A stretch of DNA of 64,000 nucleotides from positions 248,001 through 312,000 of the forward strand of contig NZ_JBBYXL010000003.1 of the NCBI RefSeq assembly GCF_039655865.1, given 5' to 3'. Position numbers and translations under genes: made by a program. This document shows, in pieces, positions 28,810-48,063 of the stretch (positions are counted from its first letter, which is position 1; each line of letters begins with the position of its first letter). Under the pieces are notes generated by a model. That model saw only the letters and a list, made by a program, of their open reading frames with translations, did no database searches and was not told the DNA's origin. The DNA comes from Prosthecobacter sp. SYSU 5D2 (GTDB lineage Bacteria; Verrucomicrobiota; Verrucomicrobiia; Verrucomicrobiales; Verrucomicrobiaceae).

Positions 28810-29676
28810 TCACTTGGTAGATCCAGCCGCAGGCTTGCCATCCTCACCCAGCCGCCCCGTGGTCCACAGCAGCGCCCGGGTGATCAGGTCCAGATAACGT
28901 CCGTCCGCCACCGTCTCATTGTTATGGCCCAGCGTCGTGCTGAAGATGCGCGTCTTCTTCGGACCGTATTCATTCGTCCAGGCCACCACCGCATTAGCTT
29001 CCGTCGCCGTTGCATTCGGGTCCTGCTTCTGGCCCTTCTTCACCCTCGGCATCTGCATCTGTTTGCCGCTGGCCAGCGGCTTGGCGCCCAGCATCTGCAG
29101 GTTGTTGTAAAGCTCTTCATTCACCGTTGTCCAGTTCTCCAGACCCTTGGTCAGCGGGTGTGCAGCATCCGTAAAAGAGATGTCAATGGGTGACTGCGGG
29201 CCATGGCTCGTGGACTGGATACCGATGAACTCATACCAGCCCGCATTGTCCGCCCCGGCTGTCACCGGCTCCTTGAAGTTGCCCCAGCGGTAGCTGTGCA
29301 TCGCGCAGTGCAGGTTAACCGCCGGCACACCCTCTTTGTGCGCATCCAGGATATTGGACACATAGGCCGGGTCCGTTACATCAGCAGAGCACTCGTCATG
29401 AATGATGACGTCAAAGTCCTTTGCCCAGTCCTTGGCCTTGTAGATTTCAAAGGTGGCCTTGGTCGTCTTGTCCGGATTGAAGGCCACATCCACCACCGCA
29501 TTAAGGCGGGCTTCAATGCCTTCCTTCAGGATGGCCTGCTGGTTTTCATAATCATGGCAGCAGCCGCCGGCCACAATCAGCACGCGCAGCGGCTTTGCTG
29601 CTGGATCCGCAGCCCGGGCAAAAAAGAGACCCGCAGCGAGCGCGACCGTCAAAAGGGGAGCAATAAGTTTCTTCAT
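28810..29676 (-). CDS. Secreted ThuA-like protein
   Basis: A 288-residue protein with a signal peptide (MKKLIAPLLTVALAAGLFFARAA) and a ThuA/trehalose-utilisation-like glutamine-amidotransferase fold: VLIVAGGCCHDYENQQAIL, VIIHDECSADV, PAVNLHCAMHSYRWG and a later SHGPQSP. In this clade a Cys-His pair replaces the canonical nucleophile arrangement. Function in Verrucomicrobia is unknown; homologues accompany sugar-degradation genes and dehydrogenases. The frame reaches 29787, but the signal peptide starts at 29676, which is chosen. It is the last gene of the minus-strand run and ends at the hairpin at 28751-28775; 140 bases separate it from the HTH-hydrolase gene, so it may have its own promoter. 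Confidence 0.82.
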   Translation of the reverse strand: MKKLIAPLLTVALAAGLFFARAADPAAKPLRVLIVAGGCCHDYENQQAILKEGIEARLNAVVDVAFNPDKTTKATFEIYKAKDWAKDFDVIIHDECSADVTDPAYVSNILDAHKEGVPAVNLHCAMHSYRWGNFKEPVTAGADNAGWYEFIGIQSTSHGPQSPIDISFTDAAHPLTKGLENWTTVNEELYNNLQMLGAKPLASGKQMQMPRVKKGQKQDPNATATEANAVVAWTNEYGPKKTRIFSTTLGHNNETVADGRYLDLITRALLWTTGRLGEDGKPAAGSTK

Positions 29677-29816
29677 GGTTACTTGGTGTAGCCACTCTCC
29701 AACGTCGAGTCGAGAGCAAACTTGCAGTACAGTACCCATCACTCTCCGAGTGATGCGATCCACCCAAACGACCTCACTCCACTCCATTCCTTTCTTTCAA
29801 TCATCCTTCCCCCCAT

Positions 29817-30626
29817 TCACTTAAACTCCGGATAAAACGGATTGTGCCGCTTCTCCTCGCCCACCGTCGTCATCGGCCCATGCCCAGGGCACAGCACCGT
29901 CTCATCCGCCAGCGTAAAAATCTGCGCCCGGTTCGTCGCCAGGGCCTCCTCATACGAAACCATCCCACCGCCCATCGAGCTGGCAAAGATTGCATCACCC
30001 ACAATCGCCACCGGCTTCGCCAGCCCCTCGATCACATAAGTCGTCGCCCCTTTGGAATGCCCCGTCGTCACCCGGGTGCTGATCGTCAGCCCGCCCAGCT
30101 TCCATTGGGTCCCCGGTGCAAAAGACTGTGCCTCCGGATGCGGCTCCAGTTCGCTGATGAGCACAAACGGCGCCTGCAAGCTCCCAATGTCCGCCACATG
30201 ATCCGGATGCGTATGCGTCAGGAAAAGATACCTCAGCTTCAGCTCCAGCGAGCGGATCTTGTCCAGCATCGGCTGCGCACTCGCACCCGTATCAAAAGCC
30301 GCCGCCTCTTTCGTCGCCGGATTCCACACCAGATAGGCATTCACCGTCATGTCATGAAACGGTGTGTTAAACTGCGCCAGTCCGTCCACCTCCACCGGTT
30401 CAGGATACCACGCCTGGTCGGACATCTCCGCCAGCGACGGCCCATGCAGCCCCAGCCCCGCCGCCAGCTTCATCAAGATGGAGGTATCCGTCGCACCTTC
30501 CTTTGTCGCCTCCACGGAGGCCGCACTCACCCCCACCTTGTCGGCCAGGCTTTCATTGCTCAGCCCAAGCCCGCGCTGGGCCTTGCCGATGACATCATTG
30601 AAAAGATCTTCGAGGGGAATGTTCAT
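29817..30626 (-). CDS. HTH-metallo-beta-lactamase fusion protein
   Basis: A 269-residue protein. Residues 12-45 resemble an XRE-type helix-turn-helix (AQRGLGLSNESLADKVGVSAASVEATKEG), and the rest is a metallo-beta-lactamase fold with THTHPDHVADIG (137-148), RVTTGHSKGATTYVIEG, VGDAIFASS and CPGHGPMTTVGEE, the metal ligands of glyoxalase-II-type hydrolases. A regulator domain fused to a thiol-ester hydrolase in one short chain is unusual. The start MNIPLEDLFND at 30626 is preferred over 30710. It lies 35 bases after the CcsA stop, so it is the sixth gene of the cytochrome operon. Its substrate is unknown; a role in sulfur or thiol metabolism is inference. Confidence 0.85.
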   Translation of the reverse strand: MNIPLEDLFNDVIGKAQRGLGLSNESLADKVGVSAASVEATKEGATDTSILMKLAAGLGLHGPSLAEMSDQAWYPEPVEVDGLAQFNTPFHDMTVNAYLVWNPATKEAAAFDTGASAQPMLDKIRSLELKLRYLFLTHTHPDHVADIGSLQAPFVLISELEPHPEAQSFAPGTQWKLGGLTISTRVTTGHSKGATTYVIEGLAKPVAIVGDAIFASSMGGGMVSYEEALATNRAQIFTLADETVLCPGHGPMTTVGEEKRHNPFYPEFK

Positions 30627-30661
30627 GGCGATAGAGGGGATAACGGAATACGTTTCTGCAA

Positions 30662-32656
30662 TCAGGCCGCGCGCGCTTTCTTCGCGCTGCGCTCCTGCCA
30701 CCAGAACCACAGGCAGGCCAGGGCAAAGAGGCCCTTGATGCTGTAGCCCGTATTCAGCGCCATCGTAATCCCGGCGGTGAAACCATAGCTGTGCAGCCCG
30801 ATGCTGAGCTGGTTCACACCAAACCAGCTAAACAAGGTGATGGCTCCCAAAATCAGCGACAGCGCATGCAGGCCGATCTCGCGGATGTAGCCGCCCATGC
30901 GTGCATGCAGGATGATCAGGCCCATGAGCACAATCATCAGCGCCCCGTTTTCCTTCGGGTCCCAGCCCCAGAACCGGCCCCAGCTGTCATTCGCCCAGAT
31001 CCCCCCGAGCACCGTCCCAACCAGGGCAAACAGCAGGCCAAAGCAGACGATGCCATAAGTGATGCGGGTCAGCAGCCGGCGGAATTCCACCGCCTTCTCC
31101 CCTTTGGCCAGGAAGCGGTAGATCACATACACCATGGACACCACCGATCCCAGCATCGCCCCGGCATAACCAATATTGATAATGGTCACATGCGTGGCCA
31201 GCCAGAAGTTGGTGATCAGCACCGCTTCCAGCGTCGGCATCGTGTCCTGTCCGTCCAGCGCCATGAAGCGGTTGGAAAGAAACATCCCCAGCGCGCCCAG
31301 AAAACCCGCCACCACCAGGCCGATGCCCTGCTTCGTCACCCGCTCGATAAACAGACCCACAATGGCCATGGACCCGGTAATGAAAAGGATCGTCTCATAC
31401 AGCGTCGCAATCGGCGGCCGCTCATTGATGATACAGCGCACCGTGATGCCCCAGACGTTGTAGCCCACCGCCAGGATAAGAGTCACCCACGAGATCCGTG
31501 CCGCCCATTTGGCCCAGCCCGTATTGGGTGCCACCAGCCCGGCCAGCCCCACCAAAAAGCCCAGCAGATACCAGACCAGCGCATTCGTGAAATAGTCCTT
31601 CTTATGATAGCTCACCTCACGGTCAATATGCTTCAGTTCATCCCGCTTCTCCGCCTGCGCACGTACATCGTCCACAAAGGTCTTCACCGCCGTTTTAAAA
31701 CCTTCCGGCTTCAGGCTGGCCGCATACACTGCATCCTTGCCACTGGAGAGGCGCAGATCCCCCTCTGACAAAGAGCCCTGCATCAGCGCCGTGATGGTCT
31801 GCTCCACCGTCATCCAGGTATCGTTCTCCACATCCTCAGGCGGGATAAAGGCCAGCGTCTTGCCCGGCCTCAGTGTCGTGTTGATGAACAGTTCCAGGAT
31901 CTTTCCGGCCACATCCTGGCCCATCGCCTGCAGCCTTTGGTCACGGATCATCGGCCCCAGCCGGGTCGCCAGATCCCACACCGTCAGATCCACTTCCCCC
32001 GTCAGTTCCCGGGCTGCATCCGCAGGCAGGATGGCGGCGACTTCCTTCTTCCAGTCCGTCCGCGCCGCCGTCATGAAATCACTCACCGCATCGTAGTCGA
32101 AAAAATTCCGCGCCAGGTCAATCACATTGCGCTGCACCCCGGTGCGGTCCGCGCTTTCGATCTCGCTGTAGCTCTGCGCCCGTTTGATCAGTTCCTCCTT
32201 GCCCTTCACAATCTCATTCCAGGAATACCGGTCACGCAGATCCTTCGGATCCACATTGATCTCCCCGACCGCCTGGGAATTGTCCACCACAAACAGCGGC
32301 AGATCCCGCGCGATATCCGGCCGGAACCAGCTCAGCAGCAGCCACTCAATCGCCTTCAGCTTTTTCACATCCGGCAGCTTGGGATGGTCCACTTTCATGC
32401 TCTGCTTACCGTGCAGGCGGAGCAAAAGGAAGCGCGCATACGTATCCAGCGGCTTCACCCGTCCGCCTTCCTGCACCGGCAGCGACTGAAACAAAGCCAC
32501 CACCTCCGAGTCCAAAAACACCTTCGGAGCCGGCAGCGCCGCCGCCTCCCCTGTTGAAGATGCAGCCGCTGCCACAGGAGCAGCCACAGGGGTTGTCTCC
32601 GGCTGCTGCGCATTCAGCAGCCCGGTCATTAACGCGATGACAAAAAGAAAATTTTT
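30662..32656 (-). CDS. ccsA: CcsA-like cytochrome c biogenesis protein
   Basis: This 664-residue protein has a signal peptide (MKNFLFVIALMTGLLNA), a soluble region of about 340 residues rich in KxAxE and LxFI segments, and a C-terminal multi-TM domain of the CcsA/CcmC type. The heme-handling tryptophan-rich motif is WGRFWGWDPKENGALMI (near residue 557), with conserved His in TNFWLATHVTIINIGYAG. It forms the System II heme-delivery complex with the ResB/Ccs1 protein encoded next to it (17 bases upstream). System II attaches heme to CxxCH motifs outside the membrane. The long N-terminal extracytoplasmic domain is an addition to the usual CcsA. Confidence 0.9.
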   Translation of the reverse strand, partial: KNFLFVIALMTGLLNAQQPETTPVAAPVAAAASSTGEAAALPAPKVFLDSEVVALFQSLPVQEGGRVKPLDTYARFLLLRLHGKQSMKVDHPKLPDVKKLKAIEWLLLSWFRPDIARDLPLFVVDNSQAVGEINVDPKDLRDRYSWNEIVKGKEELIKRAQSYSEIESADRTGVQRNVIDLARNFFDYDAVSDFMTAARTDWKKEVAAILPADAARELTGEVDLTVWDLATRLGPMIRDQRLQAMGQDVAGKILELFINTTLRPGKTLAFIPPEDVENDTWMTVEQTITALMQGSLSEGDLRLSSGKDAVYAASLKPEGFKTAVKTFVDDVRAQAEKRDELKHIDREVSYHKKDYFTNALVWYLLGFLVGLAGLVAPNTGWAKWAARISWVTLILAVGYNVWGITVRCIINERPPIATLYETILFITGSMAIVGLFIERVTKQGIGLVVAGFLGALGMFLSNRFMALDGQDTMPTLEAVLITNFWLATHVTIINIGYAGAMLGSVVSMVYVIYRFLAKGEKAVEFRRLLTRITYGIVCFGLLFALVGTVLGGIWANDSWGRFWGWDPKENGALMIVLMGLIILHARMGGYIREIGLHALSLILGAITLFSWFGVNQLSIGLHSYGFTAGITMALNTGYSIKGLFALACLWFWWQERSAKKARAA

Positions 32657-32673
32657 CATGATACAATTAATAG

Positions 32674-33861
32674 TTAGACCACAGCAGGCTGGGGCTTCTT
32701 CTTCATCGCCCTGCTCAGAAAGCGGACCAGATGCATCAGGAAATGCAGGGTCAGGCCAAACGCCACCGCCACACAGCTCCACAAGGGCCATTGGTCCGAA
32801 GGATTGCTCGCCACCGTAAACACTGACTGCTCACCGCTCGTCCCAGTGCTGAAGCTGGCCTGATAAACCACAAAACCCGAATCCCGCACCGGCACGTTCA
32901 TCGTCACCACCATCGGATCCTCCTTGCCGTCTTTGATCTTCGTCACATGGCTGGTGTACCTCTTCGCCTTCATCGTGCCGGGATGCAGCTCACGCTGGAA
33001 ATCCTCCAGCCGGATGGCAAACGGCAGCTTCCACTTCATCCGCGCCAGCGCCAGCGTATAAAAACCGTCCCCCGCCTTCACCGTGTAAGGCGCAAACGCC
33101 CCCTCCCATAGGATGGCCTTTTGCGGCGCTCCATCCTTCGTCTTCACGGTCACTTCCACCGCCGTGACATTCGCCTCATCTTCCTTGGCATGTTTCACTG
33201 GCTGGATGCGGTATCCATCAATCACACCCACATCCCCTTCTTCCGCCTGGACGATGTTTGCATTGCGCTGATACCCCGTCACCTGGAGGTCAAACGGCAG
33301 GTCCTTGCCAAAAAACTCCCGCGCCTTGCCCGGTGCCAGATCCGCAAAATGGTTCATCGGGATCACCATCGCCGTCTCCTCCCCCTTGCCGGAGGCATCA
33401 AACTTCCGCACTTCAATGATGCGCTCATGGTAGCTTTGGTACTGATCGCTCGCCTGGCCTTCAAACAGCGGCATTGCCCCTTCCGTCTTGTACAGAAAAC
33501 TCACAAACCCCGCCACCAGCATGAACATAATGGCCAGGTGTGAAATCAGCACGCCAATGTTCCGCACACCCTTGCGCATGCGGATCACCGCCCCACACAG
33601 CATATTGATGAAAAGCAGCACCATCAGCAAACCGCCGCCCGGCAGCGGCACCGGCAGCACCATGCGGCCAATGGTCAGGTCATGGATCAAGAACCACGAA
33701 TCAAAATAAATCCGCTGGCTGTCCAGCAGGCCCATGTCCTTCTGGGCCAGCGTGCCCAGAAAAGTGATGAGCAGCAGAAAGCTGAGCACAATGATCGCCA
33801 GTCCAAAGGACGAAAGAATGGCGAACACGCGCGCCGGAAAACTGGTGGGAGGGGCAGACAT
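32674..33861 (-). CDS. resB: ResB/Ccs1-like cytochrome c biogenesis protein
   Basis: This 395-residue protein matches ResB/Ccs1: three N-terminal TM segments (FGLAIIVLSFLLLITFLGTL, LLMVLLFINMLCGAVI, IGVLISHLAIMFMLVAGFVSF), a large soluble periplasmic domain, and a final TM (LWSCVAVAFGLTLHFLMHLV). His in FLMHL and in GVLISHLAIMF may bind heme. It partners CcsA in System II cytochrome c maturation. It lies 17 bases before ccsA and 25 bases after the small secreted protein gene, all on the minus strand. Most of the cytochromes it could mature are encoded upstream in the same operon. Confidence 0.9.
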   Translation of the reverse strand: MSAPPTSFPARVFAILSSFGLAIIVLSFLLLITFLGTLAQKDMGLLDSQRIYFDSWFLIHDLTIGRMVLPVPLPGGGLLMVLLFINMLCGAVIRMRKGVRNIGVLISHLAIMFMLVAGFVSFLYKTEGAMPLFEGQASDQYQSYHERIIEVRKFDASGKGEETAMVIPMNHFADLAPGKAREFFGKDLPFDLQVTGYQRNANIVQAEEGDVGVIDGYRIQPVKHAKEDEANVTAVEVTVKTKDGAPQKAILWEGAFAPYTVKAGDGFYTLALARMKWKLPFAIRLEDFQRELHPGTMKAKRYTSHVTKIKDGKEDPMVVTMNVPVRDSGFVVYQASFSTGTSGEQSVFTVASNPSDQWPLWSCVAVAFGLTLHFLMHLVRFLSRAMKKKPQPAVV

Positions 33862-33886: not shown

Positions 33887-34513
33887 CTACTGTTGCGGCA
33901 TTCTCAGGCTGAGCGAGCTGACGAACTGGTCAAAGGCCGGTGTATTGGCCTCCACCAGCTCCTTCGGACCCACCATTTTCACAAACAGACCCGCCTCTCC
34001 CAGAGCCGCCACGATGCCCAGCATCCGGTGGTCCGGCCTGGCCTCCGTCTCGCCCACATTGGTATAGGCTCCGTCCACTGTGACAAAGACACCCTGGATG
34101 CCCATCAGTGTTTTTTGCGGCAGCTTGGCCATCTCCTCTTCGGTGATCTCCGGCTGGCCCATCTGCTTGCGCCAGCGGTTCACATTCGCCAGCACACCGC
34201 CAGCTCCGCCCGGTAGCATGGCCAGGTAGCATTCACCCTCATTGTTAGGCCCAAAGGTCAGGTTCACCGGCCGCATCTGCGTTCTCTCCGCCCGCGTCCA
34301 GCCTTCCGGCGTCTCCCACTGCAGCCGCTCATCGCCAAACCGCTCCTGCGAATAGGCATTCAGCTTGGGCTTCGCCTCATAGGAGGAGATTTCGCGGGTC
34401 TGCGTGATCTCCATGCGCTCGGTCACCCGCTCACAGCAGACAAGCATGGAGGAACAGGCGGCAATGGCGAGCGCGCAACGGACGTGGCGTACCCTGGGGG
34501 TGGAATCAATCAT
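33887..34513 (-). CDS. Secreted protein of unknown function in the cytochrome operon
   Basis: A 208-residue protein, not recognised as a known family. It has a lipoprotein-like N terminus: a basic stretch then ALAIAACSSMLVCCERVTE, with Cys residues at the end of the hydrophobic core (candidate lipobox around residues 23-27). The mature domain includes WETPEGWTRAERTQMRPVNLTFG, GECYLAMLPGGAGGVLANVNRWRKQ and MLGIVAALGEAGLFVKMVGP, features of verrucomicrobial uncharacterised membrane-attached proteins. It is the third gene of the operon, between the LRR-cytochrome gene and resB. Its position suggests a role in cytochrome assembly or function; that is inference. Confidence 0.8.
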   Translation of the reverse strand: MIDSTPRVRHVRCALAIAACSSMLVCCERVTERMEITQTREISSYEAKPKLNAYSQERFGDERLQWETPEGWTRAERTQMRPVNLTFGPNNEGECYLAMLPGGAGGVLANVNRWRKQMGQPEITEEEMAKLPQKTLMGIQGVFVTVDGAYTNVGETEARPDHRMLGIVAALGEAGLFVKMVGPKELVEANTPAFDQFVSSLSLRMPQQ

Positions 34514-34608: not shown

Positions 34609-36927
34609 TCAGTCTGCTTTTGGGGCTGCCGGGGCAGGTTTCGCCTTGGCTTTCTCCGCCGCCGGAGCGTCCGCCTTCTTGGCAGCCTCAGGCTTTGCAG
34701 CAGGAGGTGCATCCGCTTTCTTCGCCTCAGCCTTGGACTCAACTTTTTTGGCTTCCGGCTTCGCCGCATCTTTCTTCGGCTCCTCTTTCTTGGCAGGGGC
34801 TGGAGCAGGGGCTGGCGCTGGCGGCGCGGCCGGAGGCGGAGCGGTCAGTTTGGCGATCTCAGCCTCGCTCAGCCCCACATTCACTTTCAGTCCAGGAAGC
34901 TTGCCTTCCAGGGCAGTTGCGCCTGCCTTGGTCACACCCGTCTGCCAGACGAACAGCTTCTTCAGCCCTTTGGCCCCGGCCAGAGCCGCAATGCCAGCAT
35001 CCGTCGTCTTCGTGCCATACAGGTTCAGGTATTCCAGCTTCTGCAGCGTGGCGATTTTGGCCAGACCGGCATCGCTCATCTTGGTGTTCTCCAAGTGCAG
35101 ACGCTCCAGGGCTGTCATCTTCGCCAGCGTCTCAGCCCCCGCATCCGTCACCTTGCTGCGGGCAAGATCCACCCAGATCACATGCTTGGCAATGGGCTCC
35201 AGCAGCGCCAGCTCCGCATCCCCAAACTTGTCCGTCGCATTGATCACGCTCAGGCGCAGCTGCTCCGTATCCTGCGCCAGCGGCATCAGGGACGCATTCA
35301 GCGCCTGGATCTTCGCGGTGATCTCAGCCACCTGCTTTTTCTCAGCATCCGTCAGCGGCGCAGGCTTGCTGTCATCCACCTTGGCCACCTTAGCGCCAGC
35401 TTTTGGCAGACCTTTGCCCAAAACCAGAGCCAGAGCAGACTCCACATCCGGCGTCGCTTTCACAGAGGCCACCGTCGCCGTTTCAGAGGCGCCGTTGGCG
35501 ATCCACCACTTCAGCAAAGCCAGTTCTTCCTTCGTCACCTGCGGCTCATCGCTCGGTGGCATGTGGTCATCGTCATCCACTGGTAGATTGATGCGCTCCA
35601 GCAGCAGGCTCTCCTCCGGCTTGCCCACCACCACATTCACATCGCCCTCGCTGCCGCCCTTCATGATCGAGGCAAAATCATGCAACTGCAGCTTGCCCTT
35701 CTTCTTCTCGGCACCGTGGCAGCTGACGCACTTCGCTTCCATGATCGGCGCGATCACGTCCTTATAAATCACCGCCTTCGCCGCAATCGCCGGGTCAAGC
35801 TTGCCCTTCGCCGCCACAGGGGCTGCCGCTTTCGGCTTCGCCGCCGGGGCCTTCGCCACCGCCGCTGGCTTCGCCGCCGGAGCCTCCTTGCCCAAAAGCA
35901 CCGCCAGCGCAGGCTCCACTTCTGGAGTTGGTTTTGCCGCAGCCACCGTCACCGTATCCGAGGCACCACCGGCGATCCACCAGCGCAGCAGCGCCAGTTC
36001 TTCCTTCGTCACCTGCGGCTCATCGCTCGGTGGCATGTGGTCGTCATCGTCTTCCGGCAGCTTGATGCGGCCGATCAGCAAACTCTCGTCCGGTTTGCCC
36101 GGCACCACATTCACATCGCCCTCGCTGCCGCCTTTCATGATGGAGGCAAAGTCATGCAATTGCAGCTTGCCCTTTTTCTTTTCAGCACCATGGCAGCTCA
36201 CGCATTTCGCTTCCAGGATCGGAGCGATGACATCTTTATAAACCACCGCCTTCGCAGCCACCGCCGCATCCAGCTTGCCAGCAGGCTTTGCCGCCGCCGG
36301 AGCCGCTTTCGCCGCAGGCTTGGCCTCCGCCACCACCGGCGTTGCCGCCACAGCCACCGGCTTCGCATCATCCTCAGCCGTCCAGCCGGTATTGATCTGT
36401 GCCCCCGGGAGCTTGGCCTTCAGCTGCGCCACACCCGCCTTCGTCACTCCGGTCTGCCACAAATACAGCGCTTTCAGCTTCGTCAGTCCGGCCAGCTTCT
36501 GCGCCCCGGCATCCGTCACCTTCGTGTTGTACAAATTCAGGTATTCCAGCGCTGCCAGCCCCTTCAGGTGATCCAGCCCCGCATCCGTGATGCCGGTATT
36601 CTCCAGATGCAGTTCCGTCAGGTTCTTCATCGGTGCCAGCGCAGCCAGCCCGGCATCCGTCACCTTCGTGCGGGCCAGATCCACCGAGGTGATCTTTTCC
36701 GCCGCAGGTGCCAGCGCAGCCAGCCCCGCATCGTTAAAATCCTTGGCCACATTCAGCGCGGTAAACCGGTAGGCCTTGCCATCCGCAGCCACTGGCATCA
36801 GCGATGCCCCCGTGGCATTCACCTTGTCCACGACCGCCTTAAAGGCTGGGTCAGGCGCAGGTTTGTCGGCAGCCGTGGCAAAGGATGCCAGCGCCAGAAG
36901 GCAGATCAATGAGTGACAGAATCGCAT
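34609..36927 (-). CDS. Leucine-rich-repeat / double c-type cytochrome protein with mirrored architecture
   Basis: A 772-residue secreted protein (signal MRFCHSLICLLALASFATA). Order: LRR block A (about 40-185), Ala/Pro/Lys linker, cytochrome domain B1 (CVSCH at 242-246), linker, cytochrome domain B2 (CVSCH at 400-404), LRR block A' (about 530-690), and an Ala/Pro/Lys-rich tail. Each cytochrome has KCVSCHGAEKKKGK, then DDDDHMPPSDEPQ giving a likely Met ligand, and a WWIA(N)GAS end; this is the planctomycete-type cytochrome c. B1 and B2 differ at few positions. The two LRR blocks share DLAR(T/S)KVTDAG, HLENT, LEYLNLY and WQTGVTKAG, so the whole chain is a mirrored A-B-B-A duplication. Function unknown; LRR units usually bind proteins. 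Confidence 0.9.
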   Translation of the reverse strand: MRFCHSLICLLALASFATAADKPAPDPAFKAVVDKVNATGASLMPVAADGKAYRFTALNVAKDFNDAGLAALAPAAEKITSVDLARTKVTDAGLAALAPMKNLTELHLENTGITDAGLDHLKGLAALEYLNLYNTKVTDAGAQKLAGLTKLKALYLWQTGVTKAGVAQLKAKLPGAQINTGWTAEDDAKPVAVAATPVVAEAKPAAKAAPAAAKPAGKLDAAVAAKAVVYKDVIAPILEAKCVSCHGAEKKKGKLQLHDFASIMKGGSEGDVNVVPGKPDESLLIGRIKLPEDDDDHMPPSDEPQVTKEELALLRWWIAGGASDTVTVAAAKPTPEVEPALAVLLGKEAPAAKPAAVAKAPAAKPKAAAPVAAKGKLDPAIAAKAVIYKDVIAPIMEAKCVSCHGAEKKKGKLQLHDFASIMKGGSEGDVNVVVGKPEESLLLERINLPVDDDDHMPPSDEPQVTKEELALLKWWIANGASETATVASVKATPDVESALALVLGKGLPKAGAKVAKVDDSKPAPLTDAEKKQVAEITAKIQALNASLMPLAQDTEQLRLSVINATDKFGDAELALLEPIAKHVIWVDLARSKVTDAGAETLAKMTALERLHLENTKMSDAGLAKIATLQKLEYLNLYGTKTTDAGIAALAGAKGLKKLFVWQTGVTKAGATALEGKLPGLKVNVGLSEAEIAKLTAPPPAAPPAPAPAPAPAKKEEPKKDAAKPEAKKVESKAEAKKADAPPAAKPEAAKKADAPAAEKAKAKPAPAAPKAD
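35500..36280 (-). repeat. Internal tandem duplication within the LRR-cytochrome gene
   Basis: Two near-identical DNA blocks, offset by 474 bases, encode the two cytochrome domains. The blocks begin near 35500 and 35975 and run about 290 bases each; matching segments include TTCGTCACCTGCGGCTCATC. The high DNA identity points to recent duplication or ongoing gene conversion. Confidence 0.85.
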
Positions 36928-36972: not shown

Positions 36973-38184
36973 TTACGGCTGTCCTTTCAAAAGAGCATCA
37001 ACCGCCGTCTTCGTCTCAGCAGGAAACTCCGCCTCGGCGACCTTCAGGGTATTCGAGGCCCCCTGCTGCACCCACCAGCGGATGAGCATCATTTCTTCTG
37101 GCGTGAGCTGCTCTTTGCCCTCAGGCGGCATGTGCTCGTCATCATCCTCCGGCAGGTCAATTCGCTGGATGCTCAGGCTTTCTGCAGGTTTGCCCGCCAC
37201 AAAATTGGCCCCGTTCTCGCCGCCCTGCATCGCCAGTTCATAGGTGTCCATTCGTAGATCTCCCTTGGACTTGTCTTCATTGTGGCACTGGTTGCACTTC
37301 GCTTCCAGGATCGGCAAAATCACATGCTGGAACACCAGTTTCTCCTTCGCCGCCTCGGCGATTCCGCCCAATACCGGAGCAGGTGGCTGCACCGGTACCG
37401 TATCCGATGTTGTGGGCGTCATCGGCTCCACGGGCTTGCCCGCCGTTTCACCAGCCGCAGGCGTCACCACAGGCACCTGTCCAGGCGGCGGATTTGGCAG
37501 CGGTGCGGGCGCAGGATCAGGCAGCGGCGCAGGCTTCACCGGCTTCGGTTTTTCCACAAAGCCCAGCATCCACTTCTCCATCGCCACCGTCTGGCTCTTC
37601 ATCGGTTCCGGCATGTGTTCGGTCAGAAACTTGCTCCCATGGGACATGTTTCCGCCAAAGTGCGCGCCCAAGCCCATCACGCCAAACGACAGGAAAAACA
37701 CCGCCCGGTAGCCATGCAGCATGTCAAAGCTCCCCTTGCCCATCGCCAGCAGCCGGATCACCAGCGCCACCAGCACCCCCGTCGTCCCCACCAGAGCCAA
37801 AGTCTGGTGCAGGGTAAAATTGCCCCCCTCATACCCGCCCTCACGGCTCAGCATGATCCCCGCCAGCACCGCCAGCACCGATCCCGCCGCGCCGATCCAC
37901 AGGATAAACAGAGCCGAAAGCCCCATGGATTCCTCCCCCTTCCTGGTCAGGCACATCAGCTCCATCAGGCATAGCACCAACAGCGCGCCCACGGGCAGGT
38001 GCAGCAGGATCGGGTGGAACCTGCCCACAAACAGCACCATCGTCTCCGCCTCCGCTGCGGGTTTTTCATACATCGGTGGAAATGCCACCAGCCCGGCGAT
38101 GAAACCGGCGATCAGCAATAACGTCGCCACCCAGGTGCCTGTGAAAGACCTGGGGGTGCCGAAATCATTGGAGGAATAAGACAT
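36973..38184 (-). CDS. Membrane protein with DUF2231-like region and a C-terminal cytochrome c domain
   Basis: A 403-residue protein. Five hydrophobic segments lie in the first 180 residues (about 17-36, 50-78, 88-112, 126-148, 160-177), with VGRFHPILLHLPVGALLVL, the His-Pro-His-Pro pattern of DUF2231 membrane proteins. A Pro-rich linker (about 212-275) follows, then a c-type cytochrome domain with CNQCH (297-301) and DDDEHMPPEGK as the Met ligand motif. The cytochrome domain is homologous to B1/B2 of the next gene. It is the first gene of the minus-strand run; 45 bases separate it from the LRR-cytochrome gene. It probably anchors electron transfer at the membrane (inference). Confidence 0.85.
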   Translation of the reverse strand: MSYSSNDFGTPRSFTGTWVATLLLIAGFIAGLVAFPPMYEKPAAEAETMVLFVGRFHPILLHLPVGALLVLCLMELMCLTRKGEESMGLSALFILWIGAAGSVLAVLAGIMLSREGGYEGGNFTLHQTLALVGTTGVLVALVIRLLAMGKGSFDMLHGYRAVFFLSFGVMGLGAHFGGNMSHGSKFLTEHMPEPMKSQTVAMEKWMLGFVEKPKPVKPAPLPDPAPAPLPNPPPGQVPVVTPAAGETAGKPVEPMTPTTSDTVPVQPPAPVLGGIAEAAKEKLVFQHVILPILEAKCNQCHNEDKSKGDLRMDTYELAMQGGENGANFVAGKPAESLSIQRIDLPEDDDEHMPPEGKEQLTPEEMMLIRWWVQQGASNTLKVAEAEFPAETKTAVDALLKGQP

Positions 38185-38401: not shown

Positions 38402-38773
38402 ATGGACACCCAAGAATCCCTCTATGAACGGCTGGGCGGTTCCGCAGGCGTTGAAACCCTCGTCGAAGCCTTCTACATCCGCGTCCTCGCCGATCCCGAA
38501 CTCGCCCCCTTTTTCCGCGACTCTTCCATTGAGCGGCTGCAAAAAATGCAGACCGAGTTCTTCAATCGCGCCCTCGGCGGCCCCATTGCCTACTCCGGCC
38601 GCCCCCTTGCCCACGTGCATCATGGCAAAGGTATCACCCGCCGCCACTTCGCCCTTTTTGTCGGCCACCTGCTGGAAACCCTCAAGGACTACGGCTGCGA
38701 AGACCGGGAGACCGATGAAGTCATCGAGCACATCAACACCTTCGCCAACGAGATCACCGGCACCTCCTACTGA
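38402..38773 (+). CDS. glbN: Truncated hemoglobin, group I
   Basis: A 123-residue 2-on-2 globin. The group I pattern is visible: LYERLGGSAGVETLVEAFY near the start (with Tyr B10 in AFY), FFRDSSIERLQKMQTEFF, then ALGGPIAYSGRPLAHVHHGKGI around the proximal His, and FALFVGHLLETL. These proteins bind O2 or NO. It has no obvious partner in the neighbourhood; the gene stop overlaps the convergent ABC permease stop by 7 bases (38767-38773). Upstream there are about 215 gene-free bases after the cytochrome operon start. Confidence 0.92.
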   Translation: MDTQESLYERLGGSAGVETLVEAFYIRVLADPELAPFFRDSSIERLQKMQTEFFNRALGGPIAYSGRPLAHVHHGKGITRRHFALFVGHLLETLKDYGCEDRETDEVIEHINTFANEITGTSY

Positions 38774-42063: not shown

Positions 42064-42945
42064 ATGCTCCTCCCCCTTCAGCAAGACGCCCCCCTCCTCC
42101 ACGACATCGCCAGCGTCCCTTCGGATCAAAACCGCCTCGATCTCTGGTGGCTCGGCCAGAGCGGGTTCCTCATCAAATGGGCAGACCATTCCTTCCTCTT
42201 CGATCCCTACCTCTCCGATTCCCTGACGAAAAAATACGCCACCACGGACAAACCCCACGTCCGCATGACCGCCCGCTGCCTGGATCCCGCCCATCTCACA
42301 GGCCTCACCCTCGTCACCGCCAGCCACCTCCACACGGACCACCTCGACGCCGAAACCCTCATTCCCATCGCTCACTCCCATCCCGGACTCCCGCTCTTCC
42401 TTCCCGGCCCCATCATCCCCGATGCCCAGGCCCGCCTCGGCGATGCCCCTTTCACCTACCTCCCGCTCACCCACGGCCAGCGCCATCAGGAAAAAGACTG
42501 GTCCATCGAAGGCGTCGCCGCCGCCCATAACGACCTCAAGACTGATGACCAGGGCCGCCATCACTACATCGGCTTCATCCTCCGCTGCGGCCCCTTCACC
42601 CTCTACCACAGCGGCGACACCCTCTGGCACGACGGTCTCATCGAAACCCTCCGCCCTTTCGGGTGCGACCTCATGCTCCTGCCCATCAATGGCAACAAGC
42701 CCGAGCGCCGCGTCGCCGGCAACCTCAACGGCACCGAAGCCGCCGCCCTCGCCAAAGCCTGCCGCGCCCGCCTCGTCGTCCCCTGCCATTACGACATGTT
42801 CGAATTTAACACCGTCACGCCCGAGGAATTTCAGCACGCCTGCGCCCGCCTCCATCAGCCTCATCGCATCCTTCAGAATGGCGAAAAACTGACCCTGTTC
42901 AGGCAAACAGATGCGTCAGTGGTTGCCCCTTGTCTGCCACGGTAA
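42064..42945 (+). CDS. UlaG-like metallo-beta-lactamase fold hydrolase
   Basis: A 293-residue protein of the metallo-beta-lactamase superfamily, resembling L-ascorbate-6-phosphate lactonase (UlaG). Motifs: [11 protein letters not shown] with FLFDPYLSD at the start, the metal-binding HLHTDHLDA, then [12 protein letters not shown] and [10 protein letters not shown]. It acts as a hydrolase on a phosphate ester or lactone; the substrate is not known. The C-terminal 15 or so residues overlap the convergent DUF1501 gene by 47 bases, and the family core ends before that. It starts just after the tandem heptamers; the ribosome site is not clear. Confidence 0.85.
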
Positions 42946-44203
42946 AGGGCCGCTTTGTGGGCGAATAAATCACCTGCTCCAGCGGCAGGCCCAGCGCATA
43001 GGCAATCGTCGCATTCAGGTCCGGCGGGGACACTTTGTTCTCCGTGACCGCCGCACCGTCCTTGTCCGTGGCCCCATACTTCTGCCCGCCCTTGATCCCA
43101 CCGCCGATCAGCACTGAGCTGAATACCGGAAAGTGGTCACGTCCTTGATTCTGGTTGATCTTCGGCGTGCGGCCAAACTCCGAACTGACCACAATCAGCG
43201 TGCTTTCCAGCAGGCCGCGTGCATTCAGGTCCGCCACCAGCGCGCTCAGCGCCGTGTCCAGCACATCACAGAGGCGCGGCGTATTGATAAAATTCGCCGT
43301 GTGGGTATCCCAGCTTCCCAGAGAAACCTCCACAAAACGCACCCCATGCTCCACCAGCCGCCTGGCCAGCAGGCAGCCCTGGCCGAAGCTCTCCTTGCCA
43401 TAGCTCTGCCGCACAGCCTCGCTCTCCTGCGTGAGGTCAAAGGCGCGCAGGTCATCACTCTTCATCAGCCGCACCGCATCATCATACATGTCTGCATAGG
43501 CCTTCACATTGCGGGTCTGCCATTCCGCCTGGAAGGCCTCATCCATGGCGGAGGCCAGATCCCGGCGCATGGCAAAGCGCTCATCCGTCACCCCTTTGGC
43601 CGGGCGCACATTTTGCAGTCCGGCCTCGGGATTGCTCACCATCAGCGGCCCGTGCTTCTTGGCAAAAAAGCCCGCTCCCGGATGGCGGCTGTCATTGCCG
43701 ATGAAAACATACGGCGGCAGTGACGGATTCCCCGCCCCCTGATAAAAGCTCAGCCAGGCACCCAGGCCCGGATGCCGGATCGTGCCGCGCAGACCAAAGC
43801 TCGTGTGCATGTAGTAGTTCGCCTGCTCATGCGCACCGGTGTTCGTGGCCATGGAATTGATCACACAGGCATGCTGCATCTGCCTGGCCATGCGCGGCAG
43901 ATATTCGCCGATCTGGATGCCGTCCGCCTTTGTCTTGATGGCCTTTGTCGCACCCATTACCTCCTTGTTCTCCGGCTTGGGATCCCAGGTGTCCAGATGG
44001 CTCTGGCCGCCCGTCATGTATAAATAAATCACATTGCGCGCGGTCGGCACCTGGCTGGCCGAAGCGGCCCCGGCACCCAGCGCCTTTTGTCTGAACAGGT
44101 GCTCTGCCGCTGGCAGAAGCCCGACGCCTAACAAACTTTTAGCCGTGCCCGCCATGAAACGGCGGCGATCCAGATCCGAATGAGAAGAACGAAGAGCATT
44201 CAT
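42899..44203 (-). CDS. Tat-exported DUF1501 protein (copy A)
   Basis: A 434-residue DUF1501 protein with a Tat signal (DRRRFMAGTAKSLLGVG) and a sulfatase/alkaline-phosphatase-like fold: NVIYLYMTGGQSHLDTWDPKP, HEQANYYMHTSFG, HPGLGAWLSFY, then VVSSEFGRTPKIN near the end. DUF1501 proteins in this phylum accompany PSD1 proteins and are expected in the periplasm; the function of the pair is unknown. The upstream PSD1 gene is 49 bases away on the same strand, so they are co-transcribed. A second DUF1501 gene lies upstream of the PSD1 gene. Confidence 0.9.
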   Translation of the reverse strand: MNALRSSHSDLDRRRFMAGTAKSLLGVGLLPAAEHLFRQKALGAGAASASQVPTARNVIYLYMTGGQSHLDTWDPKPENKEVMGATKAIKTKADGIQIGEYLPRMARQMQHACVINSMATNTGAHEQANYYMHTSFGLRGTIRHPGLGAWLSFYQGAGNPSLPPYVFIGNDSRHPGAGFFAKKHGPLMVSNPEAGLQNVRPAKGVTDERFAMRRDLASAMDEAFQAEWQTRNVKAYADMYDDAVRLMKSDDLRAFDLTQESEAVRQSYGKESFGQGCLLARRLVEHGVRFVEVSLGSWDTHTANFINTPRLCDVLDTALSALVADLNARGLLESTLIVVSSEFGRTPKINQNQGRDHFPVFSSVLIGGGIKGGQKYGATDKDGAAVTENKVSPPDLNATIAYALGLPLEQVIYSPTKRPFTVADKGQPLTHLFA

Positions 44204-44252
44204 GGCGAGTAATGACAGTTGATTGATTGAAATTAAAAGAAGGCCACAGGAC

Positions 44253-46415
44253 TTATTGGATGAACAAAAACTGCTGCGTGCTGAGAGCGGCGAGCGCCAT
44301 GTCCTCCCACAGGTTTTTGTTGCTGGCGTAACTCTCGACTCGCTGGTTCATCATCTGCCTTTCCTGGGGAGTAGGCAGGCGGGAAAACAGGGTCAGATAA
44401 AGGGTGTCAATCTTCTCGTTTGCCGTCTTGGCCTGCCGCAGGTTCATGGACAGCACCGACCAACCGCCGGTGATCTGGTTGGCCAGGGAGCCGTTCATCA
44501 TTGCCAGAGCCTGCGGCACCGAAGCCTCGTCGCTGGAGTTCTCGATCACATCCCGGTCTGACTGGCCAAATTCACGCAGGAAATGGCCACGCGGTGCAGG
44601 TGAGGTCAGCTCCGCAGCGCGGCTCCAGCTCTGGTGCAGCCCTTTACGATATTTCTCATAACTGGCCAGGGACTTCTTGTCTTTGATCCCCAGCAGGCCG
44701 GTTTCTTTCTCCAGGTTTTCGGCCATCGGACCTTCCACCGGCATCTCCATCACGTCCACGCGGGCGCTTTCCATTAGGTTCATCATGGCCATCTCCATCG
44801 GCCCTTCGCCGCTGATGGCGGCCAGCTTCGCCTGCACCTCCTTATTGTTAGACTTTGCCGCCGCTTCATAAAAGCAGCGGGAGACCTCCTGCCGCAGTAT
44901 CCGCTGGCTCTGGCCCAGACGGCGCTGGATGTCTTTGGCCGTTTCCTTGTCATCCTTGGCACGCGCCACGTCTAGATCCTTGCGCATCTGGTCAAAGGCC
45001 TTGTTCTGCTCCCGCATCGCCACCGCCACCTGCGCTGCGGCTTCGAAAAGCAAGGGTGCCTCCGTGCTGTCCAGCAATTCCGCCAGCCGGCGGCGGTTCT
45101 CCAGCTCGCGCTTCTCACGCTCGCGCGCCGTCCAGTTGATCTGGTCCGGTTCAGGGTTCACCAGCGTCACCAGGGAGTCCCAGGCCTGCTCGGAAGTCAT
45201 GCGACGGAAGACTGGACCGGGGAAGTAATACATCTCCCCCAGCCCCACCTCAGGCGTGCTGGCACGGGCAAAGGTCTGCGTGTTCAGCAGCATCTTCAAA
45301 AAGCCCTTCATGTCATACTTCATCGCCACCATCTGCCTTTCCAAAAAGGCCTCCAGCTCCGGGTTCGATGCCACACTGCCGTCCATCAGCTCATCCAGCG
45401 GCTCGATCAGGGCCAGTCCAAAAACCTTCTTCCAAAGCCGGTTCACAATCACCGTCGTGAACCGTGGATTCTCCTTCGATGCCAGCCACTCGCTAAACGT
45501 CCGTGCCGTGTTCGTCTCCTTGTTCACCTTCACCGGTTTGCCAAACATCACCGCCGCTTCCACCACAGATTTCGGTTTGGCATCGGGGTATTTGTAATCA
45601 TGCGGCAGCTTCAGCGCCGCCTTGTTCTGCACCACCAGCGTATCGCGCAGTGGCCGCGTCACCTCGGTGATCGCCTGGCGCATCAGATCCTGGGTCTCTT
45701 TGTCCAGGGACTTATCCGCGCGGATCATTTTTTGTGCCTCCTCCGTACCGGGCGAGCGGTAGGCCGAAGACGTCATGTTATGCGTAAATGCCGCCATCTC
45801 GAAAAACTGCTTCTGCGTCCATTTGTCGAAGGGGTGGTCATGGCACTGTGCACACTCCATGCGCGTGCCCAGGAAGACCCGCGTGGTGTTGGAAAGATTG
45901 TCCAGCGGCATGCCCCGGTCACGCATGTAATAACCGATGGCACCATTGTCGAAACAGGCTCCCTCGCTACTCACCAGCTCACGCGTCAACTGGTCATAAG
46001 GTTTGTTATCCCGCAGCGCTTGACGGATGAAGTTCAGGTAATTTTGCGCCGTCGTGCTGTCCGCCACGCCCTGGCTCTGCGCCCGCAGCACATCCGCCCA
46101 GTAATTGAAAAAGTGATGCACATAACCGTCCGAGGCCAGCAGCGAATCCACCAGTTTCTCCCGCTTCGCCGGGTCCTCATAGGCCAGGAAGCGCCGCGTT
46201 TCATCCAGCGTCGGGATGCGACCCACCACCGTCAGGTAGGCCCGCCGCAAAAACACCTCATCCCCCACCGGCGCATTCGGCTGGATGTTGTGCTTCTGCC
46301 AGCCCCGGGCCAGCAGTTCATCAATGCGTTTGGAGGCGGCATCCGTCTCTCCCGCAGGAAGAGCCGTGACCACCATGAGAACCGGTGCAAACAGGAAGAG
46401 CAAAGTTGCTTTCAT
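44253..46415 (-). CDS. PSD1 (DUF1549/DUF1553) domain exported protein
   Basis: A 720-residue protein with a signal peptide (MKATLLFLFAPVLMVVTALPAG), then DUF1549 (IDELLARGWQKHNIQPN; PVGDEVFLRRAYLTVVGRIPTLDE), a CAQCHDHPFDKW motif that resembles a heme c or metal site, and DUF1553 (LASKENPRFTTVIVNRLWKKVFGLALIEPLDE; TQTFARASTP). A central Glu/Lys-rich helical insert precedes the C terminus, LSTQQFLFIQ. This gene type forms a conserved pair with DUF1501, here copy A, 49 bases downstream. A dehydrogenase or sulfated-polysaccharide role has been suggested for the pair, not shown. Start chosen at the signal peptide. Confidence 0.9.
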   Translation of the reverse strand: MKATLLFLFAPVLMVVTALPAGETDAASKRIDELLARGWQKHNIQPNAPVGDEVFLRRAYLTVVGRIPTLDETRRFLAYEDPAKREKLVDSLLASDGYVHHFFNYWADVLRAQSQGVADSTTAQNYLNFIRQALRDNKPYDQLTRELVSSEGACFDNGAIGYYMRDRGMPLDNLSNTTRVFLGTRMECAQCHDHPFDKWTQKQFFEMAAFTHNMTSSAYRSPGTEEAQKMIRADKSLDKETQDLMRQAITEVTRPLRDTLVVQNKAALKLPHDYKYPDAKPKSVVEAAVMFGKPVKVNKETNTARTFSEWLASKENPRFTTVIVNRLWKKVFGLALIEPLDELMDGSVASNPELEAFLERQMVAMKYDMKGFLKMLLNTQTFARASTPEVGLGEMYYFPGPVFRRMTSEQAWDSLVTLVNPEPDQINWTAREREKRELENRRRLAELLDSTEAPLLFEAAAQVAVAMREQNKAFDQMRKDLDVARAKDDKETAKDIQRRLGQSQRILRQEVSRCFYEAAAKSNNKEVQAKLAAISGEGPMEMAMMNLMESARVDVMEMPVEGPMAENLEKETGLLGIKDKKSLASYEKYRKGLHQSWSRAAELTSPAPRGHFLREFGQSDRDVIENSSDEASVPQALAMMNGSLANQITGGWSVLSMNLRQAKTANEKIDTLYLTLFSRLPTPQERQMMNQRVESYASNKNLWEDMALAALSTQQFLFIQ

Positions 46416-46555
46416 GAGGCAACCAACGCCCCCCAAATTGCCCCCCTGTCACCCCAATCCCGCTATGACAAACCAAGCCCATCCATCCCCAATTCACGCA
46501 CAGCTCGAGAGAAAAAGAAGCTTGTCTGCTGCCGCTAAAAATATCAGTCCCGGCA

Positions 46556-47971
46556 TTACGCCAAAATATCCTTCACCACATGGCCATGCACATCCGTGAG
46601 GCGGAAGTCGCGGCCGGCGTAACGATAGGTCAGCGCTTCGTGATCCAGGCCCAAAATGTGCAGAATGGTGGCGTGGAAGTCGTGGATGTGGATCTTGTTT
46701 TCGGTGGCGAAGTAGCCGTAGTCATCGGTGGCTCCGTAGGCCATGCCGCCTTTCACACCGCCGCCGGCCATCCACATGGTGAAGCCTTCTGGATTGTGGT
46801 CGCGGCCGTCGCCGCCCTGGGCGGTCGGGGTGCGGCCAAATTCACCGCCCCAGATGACCAGGGTGTCTTCCAGGAGACCGCGTGATTTGAGATCGTGCAG
46901 CAGACCGGCGATGGGTTTGTCCACCTCGGCGGCATTTTTTGTGTGGCCTTTGATCAGGTCGCCGTGCTGATCCCACTGCACGTTGGCATCGCTATGAGTG
47001 ACCTGGATAAAACGTACGCCGCGCTCGGCAAACCGGCGGGCCATCAGGCACTGACGTCCGAAGTTTTGCGTCACCGGATCATCCATGCCGTAAAGCTTAC
47101 GCGTGGCCTCCGTCTCACCGGAGACATCCTGGAGTTCAGGCATGGCCGACTGCATGCGGAAGGCCAGTTCAAAGGAATTGATGCGGGCCTCCAGGGCGGC
47201 ATTTTCACCGGTCACGTCCAGGTGGTTTCGGTTCATGCGGCTGGCCAGGTCCAGTTGCAGACGCTGCAAAGAGGGCGACTTCAGCGGACTGTGGATGTGC
47301 CTCACCACGGCCTGGTCCGCCGGCACACTCGCATTGCCCATCGGAGTCCCCTGGGCCCAGGCCGGCAGGAAAGCGGCCCCCCAATTGTTCACTCCACCGT
47401 GCGCCAGGGTGGGACAGATCGTGACAAAGCCGGGCAGATCTGAATTTTCCGTGCCCAGTCCGTAGCTGACCCAGGCGCCGAGGCTGGGCCGCACAAAGGT
47501 GTCACTGCCGGTGTGCAGCTTCAAAAGCGCACCTCCATGGGCGGGATTGGTGCCATGCAGGGAGCGCAGGATGCACAGGTCATCCACGCAGCGGGCCACA
47601 TGCGGAAACAGCTCGCTCACCGGCAGACCGCTCTCGCCATAATTTTTAAATTTCCATGGCGATTTCAGCAGTGTGCTGGTCTTGGCAAAAGTCACGCGAG
47701 GCAGGGCAAAAGGAAGCTGCTTGCCGTGGTCCCGGTCCAGGAGCGGCTTCGGATCAAACGTGTCCACATGCGAAGGGCCGCCCTTCATGAAGAGAAAAAT
47801 CACCCGCTTGGCCCGCGCCGGGAAATGCGGCTTTTTGGCCAGCAACGGATTGTCAGACTGCGCCGCCGCGTTCAGAATTCCCTGCAATGCCACGGCACCA
47901 AAACCGGCCGCAGACCGCTGGAGCAGGGCGCGGCGGCTGAAATGATTCTCAAATGCGGGGGGCATGACCAT
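46556..47971 (-). CDS. Tat-exported DUF1501 protein (copy B)
   Basis: A 471-residue DUF1501 protein. Tat-like signal ([20 protein letters not shown]), then [64 protein letters not shown] and [19 protein letters not shown]. It diverges clearly from copy A (about 30% by inspection). It lies 140 bases upstream of the PSD1 gene on the same strand. Usually each DUF1501 gene follows its own PSD1 gene; here copy B has none behind it, so it may be a lone member or the remains of an older pair. Start is ambiguous (47971 or 47965). Confidence 0.87.
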
Positions 47972-48063
47972 AAGCATATTACGGTCCGAAAAGTTCCTTT
48001 TATCTCCCGCAGGGCGCAAGACTTCCATTTGAGCACAGGACGATGTCTTGCCATCATCCCGGT

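Follow-up and report, generated by a model that had tools for sequence, protein, structure and literature searches.

A leucine-rich repeat protein with two tandem PSCyt1 cytochromes in Prosthecobacter as the probable soluble half of a membrane electron-transfer unit

The 64,000-nucleotide stretch of Prosthecobacter sp. SYSU 5D2 analyzed here (contig NZ_JBBYXL010000003.1, positions 248,001 to 312,000; hereafter the window) contains an operon that encodes P0001, a protein in which two leucine-rich repeat (LRR) domains, A1 and A2, enclose two c-type cytochrome domains of the PSCyt1 family, B1 and B2, and its membrane-bound neighbor P0002 (Table 1). The A-B-B-A order within one open reading frame (ORF), which had been proposed from the sequence alone (the original prediction), was confirmed by Pfam, which found two stretches of PSCyt1 (PF07635; 96.4 bits, gathering cut-off 22) and two stretches each of LRR_4 (55 bits) and LRR_8 (52.7 bits; cut-off 27). 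The proposed joining of redox domains to protein-binding repeats is thus supported, and each of the shared motifs that had been quoted for the paired domains occurs twice in the translation. The secretion proposed for P0001 has its basis in a signal-like N-terminus seen by eye in the translation.

Table 1. Features of the operon in the window, with positions in the window and the basis of each assignment.
Feature	Position	Strand	Basis
CcsA-type cytochrome c assembly protein	30662..32791	-	Pfam, NCBIfam
ResB, the only ResB match of the genome	32674..33861	-	Pfam, genome search
Lipoprotein-like protein, 208 aa, conserved in the operon	33887..34513	-	Pfam/NCBIfam scan, neighbor survey
A-B-B-A protein P0001, 772 aa	34609..36927	-	ORF list, ATG start, translation, Pfam
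Pro/Ala/Lys-rich C-terminal tail of P0001, residues 691-772, without CXXCH domain	34612..34857	-	Translation
LRR domain A2, residues 526-690	34858..35352	-	Pfam, alignment, model
PSCyt1 cytochrome B2, residues 384-505, one CXXCH; tandem relative of B1	35413..35778	-	Pfam, tree, DNA repeat
PSCyt1 cytochrome B1, residues 226-347, one CXXCH	35887..36252	-	Pfam, motif
LRR domain A1, residues 26-185	36373..36852	-	Pfam, alignment, model (pLDDT mostly 79-94), PDB LRR matches
Signal-peptide-like N-terminus of P0001, residues 1-19	36871..36927	-	Translation inspected by eye
Membrane partner P0002, 403 aa, DUF2231-like domain and one PSCyt1	36973..38184	-	Pfam, model
DUF2231-like membrane domain of P0002, conserved histidines	37612..38049	-	Alignment of 57 proteins

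Both pairs of domains are clearly homologous. A1 and A2 share 85 of 160 residues (53%; score 379, maximum of 500 shuffles 57), so that the two LRR blocks are indeed related to each other, and B1 and B2 share 101 of 120 (84%; score 536, maximum of 500 shuffles 44). Alignment of the two halves at the DNA level recovered a direct repeat of two 300-nt copies at a spacing of 474, the offset that had been predicted, with 20 to 30 of every 30 bases matching over approximately residues 221-350 and 14 to 18 of 30 at residues 191-220; since the copies are only 83% identical, their description as nearly identical was too strong. All repeat copies in P0001 are direct and none is inverted, so the duplication is mirrored in its domain order only. 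An AlphaFold2 model of P0001 (20 sequences, heme-free; mean predicted local distance difference test score, pLDDT, 69.9; predicted template modeling score 0.36) contained two well-predicted LRR solenoids, with ten-residue blocks mostly at pLDDT 79-96; confidence was low in the linkers and in much of the region that holds the cytochromes. The solenoid fold matched LRR chains of the PDB (e.g. 2wqu, Z 16.1, root-mean-square deviation (rmsd) 4.4, 151 residues aligned), and a search of a viral structure library likewise returned LRR proteins, nearly all of them from giant viruses. Elsewhere, the window genome encodes a further protein (L054, contig C7, 65805-66302) whose 586-aa frame contains a tandem pair of PSCyt1 domains.

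The operon belongs to a conserved run of genes in the order DUF2231-like membrane cytochrome, LRR-cytochrome-LRR protein, lipoprotein-like protein, ResB and CcsA. Our counts for related loci refer to the best 77 of the 174 named relatives kept by the scan (the named loci), 49 with two LRR domains and 28 with one; the locus of G052 (L049), in which no frame passed the filter, was left out of all tallies. In the layout code used below, M stands for the DUF2231-like domain and c for a C-terminal CXXCH domain. A membrane gene, or a fusion with one, lies upstream in 43 of the 44 two-LRR loci that have room for it, and the 44th (L093) has the membrane gene and misses the overlap limit only; in G031 this gene lies at a contig edge. 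Downstream, the lipoprotein-like, ResB and CcsA genes were all present in 32 of the 36 two-LRR loci with at least 4.6 kb of sequence, the exceptions being L085, L086, L103 and L105, and ccs genes were found in only 1 of the 20 one-LRR loci with room downstream (L074). Fusions, in which the membrane domain and the LRR-cytochrome form a single protein (L062 and L107, both M-B-A-B-B-A; L106, M-B-A-B-A; and G115), are the strongest direct evidence that the genes for P0002 and the A-B-B-A protein belong to one unit.

P0002 carries a PSCyt1 domain with a CXXCH motif (55.9 bits, cut-off 22), and its model (mean pLDDT 85.5) contains helices at residues 15-34, 57-77, 81-113, 121-150 and 153-182. In an alignment of 57 such proteins, all with a cytochrome, His57, His62, His126 and His182 are invariant and His175 is kept in 56. 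By helix order, all five histidines would lie near the side that bears the C-terminal cytochrome, which we take to be periplasmic. Among 32 membrane domains from the phylum sample, the histidine at the fifth position is present in all 11 that are fused to a CXXCH domain (P0002 included) and in 2 of the 21 others; in cytochrome-free domains the position is otherwise occupied by Tyr, Trp, Phe or Leu. One of the two exceptions (L168) is truncated by the edge of its contig, and no CXXCH was found in any frame of more than 60 aa in the fetched flanks of either. This pattern, which was noticed in the data rather than predicted, leads us to read the fifth histidine as a putative ligand gained along with the cytochrome; our guess for the group bound by the conserved histidines would be heme b.

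A link to the PSCyt/PSD1 and DUF1501 proteins is suggested by gene order in four lineages outside the window (L128, L169, L170 and L171). In Dyadobacter (L128), genes for a PSCyt1-PSCyt2-PSD1 protein with a CBM6 domain, a DUF1501 protein and a DUF2231-PSCyt1-LRR protein are followed by a TonB-plug receptor and SusD, the first three being on one strand, and the same order of these three on one strand recurs in L169, L170 and L171, which belong to three other families within the sample of the phylum; L171 has, in addition, a 238-aa frame of no assigned family between the PSD1 and DUF1501 genes. PSCyt1 is the only domain that Pfam recognises in the proteins of L169 and L170, whose membrane domains (111 and 54 bits) and LRRs (51 and 58 bits) were assigned with custom profiles. 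In L171 (5899-7656, plus strand) Pfam finds DUF2231, PSCyt1 and F5_F8_type_C, with a weak LRR stretch between them by custom profile (49 bits), and the docking part of the unit may thus vary. In G174, these adjoining genes are the sole PSD1 and the sole membrane unit of the genome.

The numbers of these proteins in whole genomes point in the same direction. The window genome has one membrane unit, together with 62 PSCyt1 matches, 54 DUF1501 matches above the cut-off and 54 PSD1 matches distributed over 50 frames; a DUF1501 gene lies on the same strand within 2.5 kb of 32 of these frames. Across 56 relatives, the membrane domain was found in 43 of the 49 genomes with PSD1 and in none of the 7 without it (one-sided p = 7e-6 in a test that, like the other co-occurrence tests, ignores kinship). 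Within the genus (G000-G034, n = 35), 31 genomes have one copy, G029 has two and G015, G020 and G027 have none. In a sample of 144 genomes from the phylum, 24 have a match to the membrane domain, and PSCyt1 and LRR accompany it in five, all of which are among the seven with a strong PSD1 match (more than 250 bits, a threshold chosen after seeing a gap from 172 to 255 bits); the window genome is one of the five, with the three domains spread over two genes. With any PSD1 match instead of a strong one, the figures are 5 of 44 versus 0 of 100 (p = 0.002). PSD1 counts per genome are at least the figures obtained, the best 39 having been scored in the relatives and the best 17 in the phylum search.

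The LRR arms carry what may be two binding faces. At 12 positions per domain on the concave face, chosen with the guidance of the model strands at 79-85, 105-109, 129-133 and 153-157, conservation among 32 sequences of each domain averaged 0.98 for A1 and 0.96 for A2, compared to 0.82 at 59 other positions (p = 6e-4 and 8e-4, respectively). Within residues 78-160 the only fixed differences between A1 and A2 are at 81 and 105, i.e. 2 of 12 concave versus 0 of 59 other positions (Fisher p approximately 0.027, calculated by hand). A2 agrees with the consensus of the 28 single-LRR proteins at all 12 concave positions and A1 at 8, the departures being S81 for W, E105 for R, A153 for K and Y155 for F; since A2 has thus kept the common residues, it looks like the keeper of the old binding face and A1 like the changed one.

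Taken together, these findings suggest that P0001 probably forms the soluble half of a single electron-transfer unit of the membrane, and its likeliest role is to transfer electrons and to dock partners by its arms. The other half of this membrane-anchored c-type cytochrome unit would be P0002, with its DUF2231-like domain in the inner membrane and the histidines of that domain probably binding heme b, or else another metal, close to the periplasmic face. The LRR arms would dock periplasmic partners at the hemes, of which the PSCyt1-PSCyt2-PSD1 proteins and their DUF1501 companions are the likeliest candidates, and electrons from these proteins could reach the membrane domain by way of the PSCyt1 domains and continue to the respiratory chain, or travel the opposite way. 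In the Verrucomicrobiaceae, the unit would have become a single-copy hub, which in the window genome sits in the operon of the only ResB, a protein of cytochrome c maturation, and the A-B-B-A layout would be this hub with one extra tandem cytochrome. That the unit acts as a hub in the membrane, present in one copy and accepting electrons from PSCyt/PSD1 proteins that dock on the LRR arms, is a proposal to which we give an even chance of being correct, its partners, heme and electron transfer being predicted; the hub may be shared by dozens of heme proteins of the window bacterium that are so far uncharacterised. The fuller version, in which the pair of DUF2231-cytochrome and LRR-cytochrome is the one shared membrane acceptor for the whole PSCyt/PSD1-DUF1501 set, with a five-histidine heme site, an old face on A2 and a changed one on A1, is put forward tentatively and with more doubt than belief. 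If the proposal is true, the single-copy membrane partner offers one gene with which to test whether the PSD1 proteins, which have tens of copies in the window genome and are present in most of the 56 relatives, feed one electron-transfer route.

Several observations weigh against this interpretation. Six of the seven relatives without PSD1 belong to one genus, and the co-occurrence tests consequently overstate the independence of the data. PSD1 without the membrane domain was found in six relatives (G015, G020, G027, G038 and G045, 68-87% complete, and G055, 94% complete), while in the phylum sample G109 and G171 each have one strong PSD1 match and lack the membrane domain. Furthermore, 19 of the 24 phylum genomes with the membrane domain have neither an LRR on it nor a strong PSD1, so that the membrane domain by itself is not tied to PSD1, and the unit of the window is not adjacent to a strong PSD1 gene. 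The DUF2231 score of P0002 (PF09990, 21.7) falls below the cut-off of 26.4. A Foldseek comparison of its membrane model with the PDB gave no significant match (best E 0.7), and VIA-align placed cytochrome b561 (4o6y, Z 10.1, rmsd 6.3, 153 aligned) amid unrelated helical bundles; both methods returned generic helical bundles. With respect to the arms, the LRR tree puts the majority of single-LRR domains on the A1 side although A2 shares their concave residues, A1 agrees with the single-LRR proteins at more of the other positions (40 of 59) than A2 does (35 of 59), which speaks against simply taking A2 as the old one, and the single-LRR proteins alone had no significant concave excess (p = 0.10).

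The wider neighborhoods contain further genes. In the window, metallo-beta-lactamase and ThuA genes (28810-30710) follow CcsA on the same strand, a gene for a bacterial-like globin (38402-38773, plus strand) is divergent from the operon, as one also is in L069 and L091, and a DUF1501 gene, a weak PSD1-type gene and a second DUF1501 gene (42899-48079) lie approximately 5 kb upstream. ThuA adjoins the unit in L085 and in L170, in the latter as a gene that follows it, and is approximately 9 kb away in L059 and L098; in L171 the unit is followed by a GH95 gene. A role in carbohydrate metabolism would fit these sugar-related neighbors (SusD, CBM6, GH95 and ThuA), as well as a suggestion made in the accessible part of PMC5615132.

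How much meaning the A-B-B-A layout itself carries is a separate matter, and here an explanation that is compatible with the proposed hub, since it concerns the layout only, stands as good a chance of being right as of being wrong: the second cytochrome could be an inconsequential fluctuation in domain number, a tandem copy in a tolerant linker that adds nothing new. The closest relatives in the whole-genome set belong to one genus, and in all 31 congener loci, which come from 30 of the 34 congener genomes and partly overlap with the named loci, the layout is LRR-cytochrome-LRR with a single PSCyt1; G015, G020, G027 and G031 have distant matches only (best E 1e-19 to 3e-49, compared to 1e-146 or lower in the other congeners). 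The named loci comprise A-B-A-c (24), A-B-A (18), B-A (17), M-B-A (7), A-B-B-A (3), M-B-A-B-B-A (2) and B-A-B (2), with B-A-B-B-A (L061, whose frame is truncated where the contig begins), M-B-B-A, M-B-A-B-A and M-B-A-B once each. Two cytochromes between two LRR domains thus occur in 6 of the 77 loci, or 6 of the 49 with two LRR domains. The combination had been called unusual; LRR-cytochrome-LRR is a common arrangement in the family (42 of 77), and A-B-B-A is the rarer form.

The congeners differ from P0001 at the C-terminus as well, where 21 of the 31 loci have an extra CXXCH domain and 9 or 10 have a single CXXCH, L014 stopping at a contig edge with its C-terminal tail not covered. This domain, carried by L013, L017-L020 and L022-L029 among others, comprises the last 95 or so residues, with the CXXCH approximately 11 residues before the end (e.g. 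L019, 1219-1503, minus strand). No Pfam family matched it over the cut-off, the weak stretches of Cytochrom_c3_2 and Cytochrome_C7 both scoring lower, and the PDB search gave no chain with E under 0.8. Its C-terminal motif position prompted the initial idea that it might be of class II (c-prime-like).

The two duplications in P0001 seem to differ in age. In the LRR tree, A1 of the genus forms one group and A2 another, each beside domains of other families (support 98/90, midpoint root), and their duplication therefore predates the genus (the Prosthecobacter group). The window B1 and B2 were placed with B of G034 and G019; dN (nonsynonymous divergence) between them is 0.09 and dS (synonymous divergence) 0.68, while dS to G019, which with the window made up this comparison (G034 and G018 being left out), was saturated, with no value for B1 and 2.5 for B2. 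By this measure the B duplication would be younger than the split from G019, or recently homogenised, with the order left unsettled by the protein trees: in one tree B1 and B2 are monophyletic (94/61), in another B1 is nearer the congeners (83/53), and the approximately unbiased (AU) test gave p = 0.487. B thus looks to have been duplicated later than A1 and A2 diverged.

A single ancestral duplication of B was rejected in a tree of 11 earlier rows and a hand-picked 24 of the 77 named loci, with all six two-B loci included, in which a clade of all B1 (AU p = 1.3e-4) and a clade of all B2 (AU p = 2.6e-4) were both excluded, a result that concerted evolution within each genome could mimic. Two-B groups outside the genus (L059, L060 and L098 with L061; L062 with L107) are separate from that of the window, and a second cytochrome between LRR domains would thus have arisen about three times, barring homogenisation. 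The rarity of the second copy and its failure to form one clade across groups suit a meaningless fluctuation, while its apparent repeated origin argues against one, as do the dN/dS of 0.13 and the CXXCH kept in both B1 and B2, because of which both copies look constrained. Most simply, the extra cytochrome would be one more relay or a second site, and the layout looks like recent variation rather than designed symmetry, with a palindrome that seems accidental.

The position of the operon beside ResB and CcsA raises the possibility, which we consider unlikely, that the unit is an accessory of cytochrome c maturation, with the LRR arms and the membrane protein serving to hold apocytochromes for these proteins, to sense them or to control their redox state. 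The downstream gene set that accompanies two-LRR but hardly ever one-LRR forms would be accounted for in this way, as would the single copy of ResB in a genome whose 62 PSCyt1 matches imply that much maturation is needed; CcsA-type matches number two. However, ccs genes are absent from all six M-B-A loci with room downstream as well as from the four exceptional two-LRR loci, and in L128, L169, L170 and L171 it is PSD1 and DUF1501 genes that precede the unit. Moreover, P0001 is itself a cytochrome, and Pfam and NCBIfam find no maturation family in P0001 or P0002, with no ResB or Cytochrom_C_asm match at E 0.01 in either and matches in their neighbors alone; the 208-aa lipoprotein-like protein has no match in Pfam or NCBIfam.

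A decidedly improbable alternative is that the unit senses redox state or a ligand and sends a signal through the membrane instead of carrying respiratory electrons. In its favor, LRR domains often recognise ligands, and a divergent globin gene lies beside the operon in the window, L069 and L091; against it, the part of the neighbors that was scanned contains no kinase, sigma-factor or response-regulator domain. The symmetrical electron conduit or scaffold that the original prediction derived from a mirrored double duplication is scarcely credible, for in spite of the A-B-B-A order and the homology of both pairs, the trees and dS give the duplications unlike ages, on which grounds the symmetry was rejected, A1 and A2 form separate clades with different residues fixed at 81 and 105 of their concave faces, all 31 congener loci have a single B, the copies are direct, and the linkers and a large part of the cytochrome region are modeled with low confidence.

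The domains of the electron-transfer unit are already known, and it is the combination of LRR, PSCyt1 and membrane domain that is undescribed in the open-access literature searched. Studholme et al. reportedly described planctomycete-specific cytochrome proteins in which PSCyt1, PSCyt2 or PSCyt3 is combined with PSD1-5. According to the accessible parts of the respective articles, PSCyt proteins occur with the protein-interaction domains WD40, Big_2 and F5_F8 and their functions are entirely unknown (He et al. 2017, PMC5615132), while the PSD1 and PSC2 domains occur 41 times each in R. baltica (PMC2754498). The word "leucine" is absent from the main text of PMC5615132, the part of PMC11495043 available to us merely uses the PSCyt1 domain name, and in the open-access literature we found nothing that combines PSCyt1 with a leucine-rich repeat and, as far as the accessible texts extend, no characterisation of an LRR-cytochrome-LRR protein or of the two-cytochrome LRR form.

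The LRR arms share the solenoid fold and sequence matches with internalin-type and other LRR proteins, but the repeats of P0001 are few, short and fused to cytochromes, and there is no pointer to virulence. Cytochrome b561 and the four-helix membrane cytochromes b offer an analogy in how they work only, with membrane histidines beside a redox partner; the searches gave no significant structural or sequence match to them, and the conserved histidines would, by helix order, lie on one side of the membrane. As for DUF2231 (PF09990), relatives exceed the Pfam cut-off of 26.4 (L106, 31.0; L173, 32.0; L171, 39.6), with L062 (26.0) and L128 (22.8) below it. In the 21 related domains without a cytochrome, the first two histidines are kept in 20 (the other being partial), the third in 21 and the fourth in 13, whereas P0002, itself under the cut-off, has the added fifth histidine and a cytochrome. 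With the PSCyt/PSD systems the window protein has the PSCyt1 domain and the phylum in common (as described in the accessible part of PMC5615132), but here PSCyt1 is joined to LRR and also, either in the partner protein or as a result of fusion, to a DUF2231-like domain, and the unit is present in a single copy that sits with ResB and CcsA.

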